In this document: positions 8,410 to 29,169 of the stretch, one piece after another
Layout: each line of letters opens with the position of its first letter
Numbering within the stretch: position 1 is the stretch's first letter
Source of the DNA: a virus
Reading direction: 5' to 3' (one strand)
Length of the DNA stretch: 29,169 nucleotides
Virus record (IMG/VR): IMGVR_UViG_3300045003_000248
Span: 1-29,169 of that record
The notes under the pieces: generated by a model
Databases searched by the model: none
The model's input: only the letters and a program-made list of their open reading frames with translations
Told to the model about the DNA's origin: nothing
Made by a program: the position numbers and the translations under genes

Positions 8410-8796
8410 TCAGAACGGATACGGCGCAACGTCGAGGAGATCGGATGTCGCCGGGAAGAACATGGACCCGCCGGTATCTCCGCCGATCAATTTCCGCTGG
8501 TACGCGGACGAGGTGTAGAGCGCACGCGACACCCCGCGCATCGCCTCCACCAGAGCCTGGAGACTGGTCGGGCCGACGCCCCGCCCCTTCACCGACACAG
8601 GCGCGTCGATCGAATAGGCGCAGCTCCAGCGCTCGCCGACCGCTTCGGGCACGGGCGCATAGATCCGGATCCACATCACCCGCTCTGAGAAGCGAACCTC
8701 GCGATAGTCTTCCGCGATCAGCCGCCGCCGGTCCCATCGCGAGCGCCGTGGGGCGGAAGGCAGAGAACGCCGGTCAGAATGGATACGGCGCGTCAT
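8410..8796 (-). CDS. Paralogue 3 of small accessory family (APYPF end)
   Basis: A 128-aa protein from ATG 8796 (a GTG at 8808 is also possible), overlapping the end of the upstream paralogue. It matches that paralogue across its length: LIAEDYREVRFSE, IYAPVPE, WSC, GPTSLQAL, LYTSSAYQRK, a GGSMFFP block and the identical C-terminus APYPF. The Arg-rich N-terminus (residues 1-25) is absent from the paralogue and may be an artefact of a start inside the overlap. Function unknown. Tandem copies beside a protein with a toxin-like C-terminus could be immunity proteins (inference). Confidence 0.55.
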   Translation of the reverse strand: MTRRIHSDRRSLPSAPRRSRWDRRRLIAEDYREVRFSERVMWIRIYAPVPEAVGERWSCAYSIDAPVSVKGRGVGPTSLQALVEAMRGVSRALYTSSAYQRKLIGGDTGGSMFFPATSDLLDVAPYPF

Positions 8797-9094
8797 TGAG
8801 GAAGACACTCACCGCAGGCACACCGAGGTCCCCACCAAACTGCCCGTTCCACCCGAGCTCCTTTCGACGATAGACGGTCGAAGCGTAGAGGATGATCGAA
8901 AGCATCTTCAGCCCAAGCTCCAGAGCCTGAAGACTCGTGGCGCCATAAGCCTTCGGCGGCCCGGCAAAACGCTCGTCGAGCTCGACCCGGCAACTCCAGG
9001 TGCAGCCGTCCGGCTCAAGCACCGGCTCATAGAGGCGAGCGCAGACCTTCTCGTCCGAGAAGGAAAGATCGAAGACCTGTTCCGCGACGACCCG
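8774..9094 (-). CDS. Paralogue 2 of small accessory family
   Basis: A 106-aa protein from GTG 9094, chosen for an AGAGG site five bases upstream; the frame is open to GTG 9142. It begins RVVAEQVFDLSFSDEKVCARLYEP, has a central WSCRVELDE, then YGATSLQALELGL, LYASTVYRRK and ends APYPF. It shares this order with the next gene and its N-terminal third with the 68-aa gene upstream. A perfect LexA box lies 68 bases before this start. I recognise no catalytic motif. An antitoxin or immunity role is a hypothesis from context. Confidence 0.6.
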   Translation of the reverse strand, partial: RVVAEQVFDLSFSDEKVCARLYEPVLEPDGCTWSCRVELDERFAGPPKAYGATSLQALELGLKMLSIILYASTVYRRKELGWNGQFGGDLGVPAVSVFLNDAPYPF

Positions 9095-9161
9095 CACCGA
9101 AGCCTCTGAACACCTCACACTCGACACCGGGATACTCAACACACCCGCGCGGAAAGATCAA

Positions 9162-9176
9162 GAACAAATAGCGAAC
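9162..9176 (-). promoter_or_regulatory. LexA (SOS) box, perfect direct repeat
   Basis: The plus strand reads GAAC-AAATAGC-GAAC, i.e. GTTC-N7-GTTC on the minus strand, the established alphaproteobacterial LexA operator. It lies 68 bases upstream of the chosen start of the paralogue-2 gene, in a 105-base gap of lower GC. Damage-inducible control of paralogues 2 and 3 is the likely meaning. Confidence 0.7.
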
Positions 9177-13745: not shown

Positions 13746-13760
13746 GAACAAAATGAAAAC
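13746..13760 (-). promoter_or_regulatory. Degenerate LexA-like box
   Basis: The plus strand reads GAAC-AAAATGA-AAAC, one base from a perfect GAAC-N7-GAAC LexA operator. It lies 24 bases before the start of the secreted 160-aa gene, where a repressor site would be effective. The single mismatch makes binding uncertain. Confidence 0.35.
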
Positions 13761-16158: not shown

Positions 16159-16173
16159 GAACAAAACGGAAAC
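16159..16173 (-). promoter_or_regulatory. Degenerate LexA-like box
   Basis: The plus strand reads GAAC-AAAACGG-AAAC, one mismatch from the LexA operator. It lies in the 193-base gap between the two SLT-like genes, 161 bases before the start of the exported copy. The flanking TCAAGAACAAA matches the sequence around the perfect box at 9162. Confidence 0.3.
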
Positions 16174-22674: not shown

Positions 22675-23163
22675 TCACGCGATCGGAACGAACTCCTCGC
22701 GGATGTACTCGATCCGGCTCAGCAGCATCTCGGCGTGCTCGCGGGTCGGCGCGACCGCGATCGGGTAGCACTCCGCAAGATCGCCGCCGCTGACGACCGT
22801 CTCCGCCCAGTCCTGGGCGATGGCGCAGTAGAGCCGCAGGGCGTCGGCGGGCGTGGGCGTCGGCTCGGTCTCGAAGACCATCGACGGCAGGTCGCCGACC
22901 ACCACCCACATCTCCGTCTCGCCGGTCAGCTCGCCGCGCTCGATCGGCCGCGCGAAGCGCACCAGGAACAGCCCGAGGATCGGCGGGACCGCGAACGCCA
23001 GCGGCATGTCCGCGATCGGAACCGCAGAACGGAAGCTCGCCACACACGCCCGCGCCTCCGCCTCGAGTTTCTCGAGTTCGCGCTGCTCCTCCGGATCGTA
23101 GTCATAGTCGATCGCAGGCGCGCCGGTCGGAAAACGGGAGGTATCGACGGGCGGGGTCGGCAT
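22675..23163 (-). CDS. Unknown 162-aa protein under a LexA box
   Basis: A 162-aa soluble protein. An acidic helical N-terminus (YDPEEQRELEKLEAEAR, about 22-38) precedes a region with MPLAFAVPPILGLFLVRFA (53-71), an EMWVVVGDLPSMVFE strand block (83-97), a LRLYCAIAQDWAETV helix (108-122) and YPIAVAPTREHAEMLL (132-147). I do not recognise a family. A perfect LexA operator lies 68 bases upstream and intergenic repeats flank both sides. A DNA-damage-inducible role follows from the box and is not supported by the protein itself. Confidence 0.7.
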   Translation of the reverse strand: MPTPPVDTSRFPTGAPAIDYDYDPEEQRELEKLEAEARACVASFRSAVPIADMPLAFAVPPILGLFLVRFARPIERGELTGETEMWVVVGDLPSMVFETEPTPTPADALRLYCAIAQDWAETVVSGGDLAECYPIAVAPTREHAEMLLSRIEYIREEFVPIA

Positions 23164-23230
23164 GGCTCATCTCCGGCGCACGGCCTGCGCCGCGCCTGGA
23201 AAGCCTGCCTGAAGGCCGAGCTCGAATCAA

Positions 23231-23245
23231 GAACAGAATGAGAAC
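23231..23245 (-). promoter_or_regulatory. LexA (SOS) box, perfect direct repeat
   Basis: The plus strand reads GAAC-AGAATGA-GAAC (GTTC-N7-GTTC on the minus strand). It lies 68 bases upstream of the 162-aa gene, the same distance as the box at 9162 from its gene. The flanking ATCAAGAACA is also shared with that box. Confidence 0.7.
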
Positions 23246-27150: not shown

Positions 27151-27696
27151 CTAGGCGGCCCAGCGCTCGGCGGCGTCCTCGCCGCGCCGCGCCCCGGCCG
27201 CAGTCGCCGGCCAGGCCGGGGTCCGGAAGACGATCGCGTGGTGCGCCGCGCAGTAGGCGCTCCGCGGCCGCACGCGGGCGCAGCACGACAGGAGCGCCGC
27301 GCCGTCGCCGCCGACCGGGAATGCGCACTCGCCGAAGTCGCGCGTCAGCCACGGCCGTGGCGCGGTCGCCGCAAGCGGGGCGAACACCGCCTCGCGCCAG
27401 GGCGAGCGCGGTGGCGTCGGCGGCGTCGGCGGCGAGGCGGCGGCCTGAGCCGGCGCCGCCGCCGGGCGAAATAGCGGCGCGGCCGCGGTCGGCGCCGACG
27501 CCCACGCCCGGGTCGGACCGTCGAAGCGCCGCGGCGGCGCCGCCGGCAGGCGGCTGCCGAGCAGGTCCAGGCGATGCAGCTTGCCCAGCACCGCGCTGCG
27601 GCTGACGTCGCCAAGCGCCTTGGCGATGCCGCTCGCTGAGACGCCTTCCGCCCACAGGCGGGTCAGAAGCTTGGTGCGCGCGTCGGTCCAGGTCAT
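27151..27696 (-). CDS. gcrA: GcrA-family transcription regulator
   Basis: A 181-aa protein. Residues 1-46 (MTWTDARTKLLTRLW, EGVSASGIAKALG, SRSAVLGKLHRL) match the GcrA DNA-binding helix-turn-helix. An Ala/Pro-rich linker follows, then the C-terminal cysteine/His module (DFGECAFPVGG, about 116-126, and RSAYCAAHHA, about 144-153) that in GcrA contacts sigma-70. GcrA stimulates promoters methylated at GANTC by CcrM. The linker is unusual in composition and this may be a prophage homologue rather than the cell-cycle copy. The symbol marks the family, not orthology. Confidence 0.82.
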   Translation of the reverse strand: MTWTDARTKLLTRLWAEGVSASGIAKALGDVSRSAVLGKLHRLDLLGSRLPAAPPRRFDGPTRAWASAPTAAAPLFRPAAAPAQAAASPPTPPTPPRSPWREAVFAPLAATAPRPWLTRDFGECAFPVGGDGAALLSCCARVRPRSAYCAAHHAIVFRTPAWPATAAGARRGEDAAERWAA

Positions 27697-27767
27697 GGCA
27701 GGCTCCGATGAAGACGGCGGCTGGGGCGCCGCGCCGGCTCCTCGCGAGCGCGGCGGTAACCCTTCCC

Positions 27768-27782
27768 GTTCGATTTCTGTTC
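27768..27782 (+). promoter_or_regulatory. LexA (SOS) box, perfect direct repeat
   Basis: GTTC-GATTTCT-GTTC lies in the 111-base divergent region, 26 bases before the plus-strand 91-aa gene and 72 bases before the minus-strand GcrA-like gene. Its orientation fits the plus-strand gene, but either or both could be LexA-controlled. Confidence 0.7.
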
Positions 27783-27807
27783 ACCTTGGCGAGGAAATGC
27801 TGGGCGG

Positions 27808-28083
27808 ATGGACGACGCCCAGCGGAATACGGCTGCGCTGCGGATGCTGGCGTTCGCCGAGATCGCGACGCTGCCGCGCCGGCGAAGGGCGGCGCGCGTC
27901 TGCCGGGCGACCCTCTCAAGGGCGCGCGATTTCCTGATGCATGCGCCGGCGCGCGACGCCCTGATGGGGACCGCGATCAGCGCCGCGGAGTTCGAGTCTC
28001 TGCGCGGTCCTGCGCTGGCCGAGCTGCGCGCCCGCTGCCGCGCCTGCGGACTCTGCGCCGCGACAGGACTCACTCCGCCGTGA
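27808..28083 (+). CDS. Small CxxCxxC protein behind a LexA box
   Basis: A 91-aa, Arg/Ala-rich helical protein. Near the C-terminus Cys77, Cys80 and Cys83 form C-x2-C-x2-C (CRACGLC), a possible metal or iron-sulfur site; an additional Cys lies at 32. It recalls the small DUF6455-type proteins of alphaproteobacteria, though I am not certain of this family. Its proximity to a perfect LexA operator suggests SOS-induced expression. No strong ribosome site is visible, so a leader effect or a different start is possible. Confidence 0.6.
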   Translation: MDDAQRNTAALRMLAFAEIATLPRRRRAARVCRATLSRARDFLMHAPARDALMGTAISAAEFESLRGPALAELRARCRACGLCAATGLTPP

Positions 28084-28101
28084 TTTGCCAGCTGATTGAC
28101 A
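28079..28101 (+). promoter_or_regulatory. Partial repeat copy D with a TTGACA element
   Basis: CGTGATTTGCCAGC matches the core of repeats A-C, and the next bases contain a consensus -35 hexamer TTGACA (28096-28101). A TATACG lies 22 bases further on, too far for a standard promoter, and GAGTC (a GANTC site) lies between. It may be part of the promoter of the 85-aa gene; the -10 is unresolved. Confidence 0.4.
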
Positions 28102-28164
28102 AAGCTCGGCAATCGAGTCGCCATATACGCGTGGAGATCGTAGACCACACGGAGAGGTCGAGTC

Positions 28165-28422
28165 ATGACCCCAGATTCGTGGGAGATCGCCCGGCGCCGC
28201 TGCGCGGCGCGGATCCGCGCCGAACTCTTCTCGTATCGGCCCCCGCGTCCGCTCGCCCTGCGTGACGAACTGCGGCTGCGCGGCATGGCCGCGCGCTGCG
28301 CCACCTGCCGGGCCTGCCCGGCGACCGTCCGCATCCTCGCCGCCATGGCGCCTGCTGCGTCCGGAACTGACGTCGTCGCCACCGACGCTCCGGTCCGGCA
28401 GGTGCTGAGGCTTGCGAGCTGA
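28165..28422 (+). CDS. Small CxxCxxC protein upstream of the repressor
   Basis: An 85-aa protein with GGAGAGG before ATG 28165. It is Arg-rich with Cys45, Cys48 and Cys51 in C-x2-C-x2-C (CATCRAC), the same spacing as the preceding small gene. Amphipathic basic helices flank the cluster, so a small DNA- or protein-binding metal protein is possible. A GAGTC site ends three bases before the ATG region (28160-28164), where CcrM methylation could matter. The family is unknown. It is followed by the repressor operator region. Confidence 0.62.
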   Translation: MTPDSWEIARRRCAARIRAELFSYRPPRPLALRDELRLRGMAARCATCRACPATVRILAAMAPAASGTDVVATDAPVRQVLRLAS

Positions 28423-28437
28423 GCGGGCATGGATGGA

Positions 28438-28454
28438 CGGTATGTTTGATACCG
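28438..28454. promoter_or_regulatory. Repressor operator 1 (perfect dyad)
   Basis: CGGTAT-GTTTG-ATACCG is a 17-base perfect dyad with six-base arms. It lies about 60 bases before the repressor gene. A second copy follows 19 bases later, an arrangement typical of autoregulated phage repressors. Confidence 0.72.
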
Positions 28455-28472
28455 TTTTCGAGTCAAGCGATT

Positions 28473-28489
28473 TGGTAGTTTTAATACCG
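28473..28489. promoter_or_regulatory. Repressor operator 2
   Basis: TGGTAGTTTTAATACCG matches operator 1 with the arms GGTA/TACC intact. Its AT-rich centre (TTTAAT) may double as the -10 of the repressor promoter. A half-site, GGTATGTTT (28498-28506), lies just before the start codon. Confidence 0.65.
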
Positions 28490-28512
28490 TCCTCCATGGT
28501 ATGTTTCCCGCC

Positions 28513-29169
28513 ATGGATGGACGTCACGACCGGTTGCGGCAGGCGCGCATCGCCGCGGGCTTCGAGCGCGCGAGCGATGCCGCGGCGCGCTTCGGCTGGA
28601 ACGAGAACACCTACAAGTCGAACGAGAACGGCAACGCGCCCTTCTCCTTCCGCAAGGCCAAGGAATACGCCGAGGCGTTCGGCGTGCGCGCCGAGTGGCT
28701 CTACGACGAGACCGGCCCAATGCAGCTTGCGGCCGAGCCGATGGTGCGGATCATCGGCCGCGTCGGCGCCGACACGGAGGGCACGGTGATCCAGACCACC
28801 GGCCAGGAGGGATACGATACCGCCCCCGTTCCGCCCGGCGGCACCTCCGCGGCGGTGGCGCTGGAGGTGGTCGGCCACTCGATGCGAGCCATCGCCGAGG
28901 ACGGTTCGCTCATCTATTTCGAGGATCAGCGCAATCCGCCGACGCCCGACATGCTGGGCTATTACTGCATCGTCGAGACCGAGGACGGTCGGGTGCTGTT
29001 CAAGCGCCTGCTCCGCGGCTCCTCGCCGGGCCTCTACATGCTGGAGAGCCAGGTGGGCCCGCCGATCGAGGACGTCCGCCTGCGCTGGGCCGCCGAGCCC
29101 ACCGCCATCATCCCCCCCAAGCAGGCCCGCCGCATTATTCGCCGCGCGGGCGAGCGGCAGGTCGCCTAA
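28513..29169 (+). CDS. Phage-type XRE/S24 repressor
   Basis: A 218-aa protein. Residues about 5-60 form an XRE helix-turn-helix (LRQARIAAGFERASDAAARF, then WNENTYKSNENG). The C-terminal S24 domain has nucleophile Ser123 (GHSMR) and Lys164 (FKRLL). It would hold lytic genes off by binding the dyad operators upstream. The expected self-cleavage dipeptide Ala-Gly is not obvious; the equivalent region reads GRVGADTEG (82-90). ATG 28513 is favoured over 28501 because it begins the conserved part, but neither has a ribosome site. The gene ends exactly at the window edge. Confidence 0.85.
   Translation: MDGRHDRLRQARIAAGFERASDAAARFGWNENTYKSNENGNAPFSFRKAKEYAEAFGVRAEWLYDETGPMQLAAEPMVRIIGRVGADTEGTVIQTTGQEGYDTAPVPPGGTSAAVALEVVGHSMRAIAEDGSLIYFEDQRNPPTPDMLGYYCIVETEDGRVLFKRLLRGSSPGLYMLESQVGPPIEDVRLRWAAEPTAIIPPKQARRIIRRAGERQVA

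Follow-up and report, generated by a model that had tools for sequence, protein, structure and literature searches.

A very probable LexA-type operator beside a phage-type gcrA gene in a prophage with a probable Caulobacteraceae host

The window, by which we mean the whole stretch of 29,169 nucleotides that was analysed (positions 1 to 29,169 of IMG/VR virus record IMGVR_UViG_3300045003_000248), is a stand-alone virus contig that encodes a portal protein, a terminase and a major head protein, and near its end has a gene for a GcrA homologue, two genes for small CxxC proteins and the gene for a CI repressor. The features of interest are as follows.

9162-9176, minus strand: second LexA-type operator, GTTCGCTATTTGTTC, with TTGA directly after it, upstream of the DUF6968 gene at 8774-9142
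23231-23245, minus strand: third LexA-type operator, GTTCTCATTCTGTTC, then TTGATTCG, upstream of the gene at 22675-23163
27151-27696, minus strand: phage-type GcrA homologue of 181 aa, with matches to PF07750 and PDB 7ye1
27768-27782, plus strand: LexA-type operator, GTTCGATTTCTGTTC, an exact motif match with a matrix score
27808-28083, plus strand: cxxc1, 91 aa, with a C-terminal C-x2-C-x2-C; the orthologue in phage L149 is at 44%
27994-28464, no strand: cluster of seven GANTC sites, at 27994, 28049, 28067, 28115, 28160, 28174 and 28460
28096-28127, plus strand: candidate cxxc2 promoter, from TTGACA (28096) to CATATA with a spacer of 20
28165-28422, plus strand: cxxc2, 85 aa, with an RCATCRACP motif; the L149 orthologue is at 51%
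28439-28488, no strand: two CI-type operators, GGTATGTTTGATACC and GGTAGTTTTAATACC, upstream of cI
28501-29169, plus strand: cI, a repressor with HTH and S24 parts, catalytic Ser and Lys present, running to the end of the record

The host is probably a member of the Caulobacteraceae, because relatives of CI, TerL and the MFS protein are found there. Of 299 genomes from this family about 60 contain CI relatives that are 59-68% identical, and four prophage loci (Phenylobacterium or alphaproteobacterial MAGs) with CI relatives at 60-61% also carry a TerL relative. A Caulobacterales MAG likewise contains a TerL relative, and for the MFS cargo gene the Caulobacteraceae relatives reach 72%; the portal protein, used as bait in genomes, gave no relatives. 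The MFS transporter gene is host-like and lies with a gene for a CheY-like response regulator amid phage genes (23476-25698, minus strand), in a place that holds replication genes in L149; the two may be cargo, or they may indicate that the prophage is decayed or rearranged. The LexA motif of Caulobacteraceae is GTTCN7GTTC (PMC12700426), and we find it beside 30 of 30 sampled lexA genes and most of the sampled recA genes of the family.

The initial annotation had placed an exact LexA box in a short divergent region between a GcrA homologue and a CxxCxxC gene, and both the box and its neighbours are as described. GTTCGATTTCTGTTC is present on the plus strand at 27768-27782, with two GTTC half-sites in direct repeat and a 7-bp spacer, which is the alphaproteobacterial form of the operator, and it lies in the 111-bp gap between the divergent gcrA and cxxc1 genes, 71 nt from the start codon of gcrA and 25 nt from that of cxxc1. 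Short divergent regulatory regions such as this gap are few in the window. Exact GTTC-N7-GTTC sequences occur three times in the window (9162 and 23231 on the minus strand, 27768 on the plus strand) against 0.61 expected, and at least three were reached in 4 of 100 shuffles of the window; all three are intergenic, and the expectation for the intergenic DNA of the window is 0.17.

The same three boxes are the top sites of the window, at 23.7, 20.5 and 18.1 bits, for a LexA matrix built from 33 distinct lexA/recA operators of Caulobacteraceae (training range 15.5-24.4 bits, median 20.7). The 27768 box has the lowest of the three scores, 18.1 bits, which is within the range of the Caulobacteraceae lexA/recA operators, and like most operators in the training set it has a T-rich spacer ending in TGTTC. 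Of 100 simulated windows none had a third-best site that reached 18.1 bits and three had a best site that did, so the 27768 site taken alone is moderately significant and the set of three is strong. We consider the 27768 box to be very probably a real LexA-type operator, and it is likely to belong to a small prophage SOS regulon.

With regard to the other two boxes, comparison was possible with relatives L019 and L024 (TerL 90% and 86% identical respectively). The 9162 box is kept in both, upstream of the same gene, and the 23231 box is kept in L019. The spacers have changed, the copies of the first box having GCTATTT, TCTTTTC and CCGATAT and those of the second TCATTCT and GCATTAT, and the flanking bases also drift, whereas both GTTC half-sites and the following TTGA are invariant, the first half-site being GTTC in all five copies. 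As half-sites and TTGA are kept and spacers are not, it appears that this phage group really uses LexA-type operators, and to judge from the sequences the pattern is one of selection on a LexA operator overlapping the -35. The two boxes are 64-67 nt from their genes, as measured on the sequence with the g9 start placed by alignment to its relatives.

The gene at 8774-9142 matches DUF6968 at 4e-13, and at 8410-9142 (minus strand) DUF6968 genes lie in tandem, a pair behind a single LexA-type box. The gene at 22675-23163 encodes a 162-aa protein without assigned function, and is accessory like the DUF6968 pair. The TTGATTCG that follows the third box is a -35 overlapped by a GANTC/YGAKTCG site, YGAKTCG being the form proposed for GcrA activation in a study that also noted LexA boxes overlapping GANTC at host SOS genes (PMC7987155). 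On the minus strand at 23218-23245 the -35 of this gene (GTTCTTGATTCG) thus has YGAKTCG adjoining the LexA box, and the GANTC is absent in L019. Near-LexA sites with GTTT as first half are present at 16159-16173 and 13746-13760, both on the minus strand (GTTTCCGTTTTGTTCTTGAC and GTTTTCATTTTGTTC), and sites of this kind are seen again ahead of other genes in L019, L021, L022, L023 and L024; several of the genes behind them have products that resemble secreted small proteins.

The GcrA homologue matches PF07750 at 2.2e-21 over residues 1-160 and the GcrA of PDB 7ye1 at 2e-16 over residues 1-168, so that both the N-terminal methyl-DNA-binding and the C-terminal sigma-binding domains are covered. 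With NF050816, the equivalog model for cell-cycle GcrA, it scores 81 bits, far below the cut-off of 280 bits, and in a tree with long branches it falls among the phage GcrAs, away from the canonical host proteins (100/99 support). We therefore treat it as a member of the GcrA family that is a divergent phage-type paralogue and not the host orthologue. That gcrA genes of phages or hosts generally have a LexA box is ruled out by 18 viral and 27 host upstream regions, in which the best LexA site has 11.7 bits against 18.1 here, and LexA control of gcrA is thus not a general trait.

On the other side of the gap, Cxxc1 ends in RCRACGLC plus a short tail and has no Pfam match. Neither Cxxc1 nor Cxxc2 falls in a recognisable family, the searches gave no relative of tested function for either, their predicted models are helical and of low confidence (pLDDT 67-69), and a fold search with the Cxxc2 model gave no match. 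L149 is the only phage in which we found orthologues of the CxxC genes, and in it cxxc1, cxxc2 and cI have the same order and orientation with another gene upstream, which indicates that these genes form a module; the region upstream of L149 cxxc1 has no LexA-type box. For the gcrA-cxxc1 junction itself there was no usable relative in IMG/VR, phage and plasmid records, or the sampled Caulobacteraceae and wider alphaproteobacterial genomes.

The CI repressor has Ala-Asp in place of the Ala-Gly scissile pair. In an alignment of CI with 36 relatives the S24 Ser and Lys are kept, with Ala-Asp or Ala-Asn in 36 of the 37 proteins and Gly-Asn in one, and it is possible that these are non-self-cleaving repressors, widespread in Caulobacteraceae. 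Absence of the Ala-Gly pair is no proof that CI is uncleavable, but if cleavage is blocked then induction would need another SOS input, as for Gifsy and 186. In line with such an input, 12 of 36 CI-family loci have an exact GTTC-N7-GTTC in the 400 bp before cI against 0.27 expected, a count that reflects few independent events as most of the 12 boxes overlap a CI operator and form one related set. The overlap is seen in L107 (4421), L109 (6198), L112 (6243) and L108 (656), with a like overlap in L132, L139, L140, L142 and L143, and it suggests that in those loci an early promoter may be under dual LexA/CI control. The 27768 box in the window has no CI-operator-like sequence, good CI operators being present only at 28439 and 28474.

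GANTC, the target of CcrM, is about three-fold depleted in the window (37 sites, 120 expected under a first-order model), and 7 of the 37 are within 27994-28464 (clustering P about 0.001). One is between the two CI operators, and another is part of CGAGTCG, a YGAKTCG GcrA/CcrM motif at 28114-28120, between TTGACA and CATATA of the candidate cxxc2 promoter. The cluster is suggestive, having the look expected of a GcrA-responsive immunity region, and this is a statistical pattern that the CI relatives do not share. As a trait of the CI family, GANTC enrichment upstream of cI was unconvincing, at 2.2 per kb against 0.9, and most loci do not show it.

There remains the matter of which gene the 27768 box serves. 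A promoter scan of 27600-28600 gave no sigma-70 promoter, and a relaxed search on both sides of the box gave only weak hexamers and no clear promoter in either direction. The box points toward cxxc1, and relative to gcrA it is oriented as the Caulobacteraceae lexA/recA operators are to their own genes; these mostly point away from the gene controlled, so orientation does not decide the target. At 71 nt, the distance to gcrA is similar to that at the sister boxes (64-67 nt), and a distance of 25 nt, as to cxxc1, is on the short side but could serve. It is plausible that LexA controls gcrA, and control of cxxc1 appears to fit the sequence about as well. The initial annotation had looked to the GcrA-like gene, and for this there is a very probable operator, a two-domain GcrA and LexA-type operators elsewhere in the phage, but neither side has a recognisable promoter and the other viral and host gcrA upstream regions compared have no box.

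The reading that we favour, and think rather probable, is that 27768 is an operator for the host LexA, and that damage releases gcrA, cxxc1 or both together with the other LexA-boxed units. In a lysogen host LexA on the 111-bp divergent region would keep gcrA, cxxc1 or both low; after DNA damage RecA would bring about LexA self-cleavage and gcrA and/or cxxc1 would be released, and the same signal would release at least two further accessory units of the prophage that have a LexA box, those at 9162 and 23231. The phage-encoded GcrA would then act as sigma-70 cofactor at GANTC-methylated promoters, possibly including those of the GANTC-rich cxxc2-cI region. The sequence basis for this is the operator match, the significance of the set, the conservation of the sister operators, the GcrA family membership and the GANTC cluster, and these suggest that DNA damage turns on gcrA, cxxc1 or both; LexA binding at 27768, the responding gene and all of the downstream steps we infer. 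The link from damage to methylation-dependent transcription is a testable hypothesis. An extended form, an epigenetic relay in which LexA cleavage releases phage GcrA and/or cxxc1, phage GcrA activates CcrM-methylated promoters in the GANTC cluster (cxxc2, cI), and these replace self-cleavage of a CI that lacks the Ala-Gly pair, we regard as quite improbable; if true, the lysis decision would depend on both DNA damage and the methylation state of the host cell cycle.

We have considered three other explanations. The box may serve the CxxC side, with LexA controlling cxxc1, and perhaps cxxc2 by read-through, and gcrA a bystander; cxxc1 would then encode a small protein, antirepressor-like or an SOS accessory, with the neighbouring CI as its target, in the way of 186 Tum and the Gifsy antirepressors. 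The box is directed at cxxc1 only 25 nt ahead, the gene is in a module with cxxc2 and cI that is kept in L149, a CI without the Ala-Gly pair may need help for its inactivation, and there is established precedent for non-cleavable repressors paired with antirepressors under LexA control (PMC3121763). However the L149 module has no box, cxxc2 has a candidate promoter of its own, neither CxxC protein has a recognisable fold or family and the loss of Ala-Gly leaves cleavage of CI a possibility, and we think this explanation unlikely. We give a similarly low probability to the 27768 match being a chance or non-functional GTTC-N7-GTTC with only the other two boxes real. In keeping with chance, TTGA abuts both sister boxes but not this one, which also has the lowest score, a score reached in 3% of simulated windows, no clear promoter and no related junction for a conservation comparison; its position in a short divergent regulatory region, its T-rich spacer with the TGTTC ending and the 0.17 exact boxes expected in all of the intergenic DNA argue against it.

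Least likely in our view, and improbable, is that the boxes are not LexA operators but belong to the promoters of the phage, as an extended -35 of the form GTTY-N7-GTTCTTGAC that a phage activator would recognise. Variants with GTTT first and TTTTGTTC(TTGAC) do recur upstream of accessory genes of the group, as at 16159 in the window, 8103 in L019 and 5471 in L022. However the 27768 box has no TTGAC part, the first half-site is GTTC in every copy at 9162 and 23231 as expected for LexA, and it is a matrix trained on host operators that puts these sites first.

If the link from damage to methylation-dependent transcription is true, this would be the first prophage, as far as we know, that wires SOS to a phage-borne GcrA and CcrM methylation, and it would offer a testable AND-gate for induction, requiring both damage and a stage of the cell cycle. 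Should only the LexA part hold, there would still be a further prophage group, probably of Caulobacteraceae, with several accessory genes under host LexA.

The initial annotation had taken the connection to be one not described for a prophage; phage GcrA, a GcrA-dependent prophage operon and LexA-run prophages are all known, and it is the combination that is new. That LexA can govern the induction of prophages is well known (PMC3121763, PMC9437464). In 186 (tum), N15 (antC), Gifsy (antirepressors), CTXphi and GIL01 there are one or more host LexA operators inside the prophage and a damage-responsive unit separate from or beside the repressor, both as proposed here. In contrast to those cases the operator in the window is the alphaproteobacterial direct repeat, it adjoins the gene for a GcrA-type sigma-70 cofactor, and any antirepressor role is putative. 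In the Alphaproteobacteria LexA controls cell-cycle signalling, an example being LexA with cckA and the gene transfer agent of Rhodobacter, where the SOS regulator feeds the CtrA/GcrA network as proposed here; that case is host chromosomal and ours involves a prophage gcrA. The phiCbK-like phages, like this one, are phages of the Caulobacter group that encode a GcrA family protein, and the paper describing them makes no mention of LexA (PMC3556154). PhiCbK is however a large siphophage, whereas here gcrA lies next to a LexA-type box, in a prophage that encodes a CI repressor. In the case of Brevundimonas subvibrioides a prophage operon is GcrA-dependent (PMC7987155), and prophage transcription is thus tied to GcrA as proposed here, but there it is the host GcrA that acts, and in the window there is a phage-encoded GcrA with a GANTC cluster at the immunity region.
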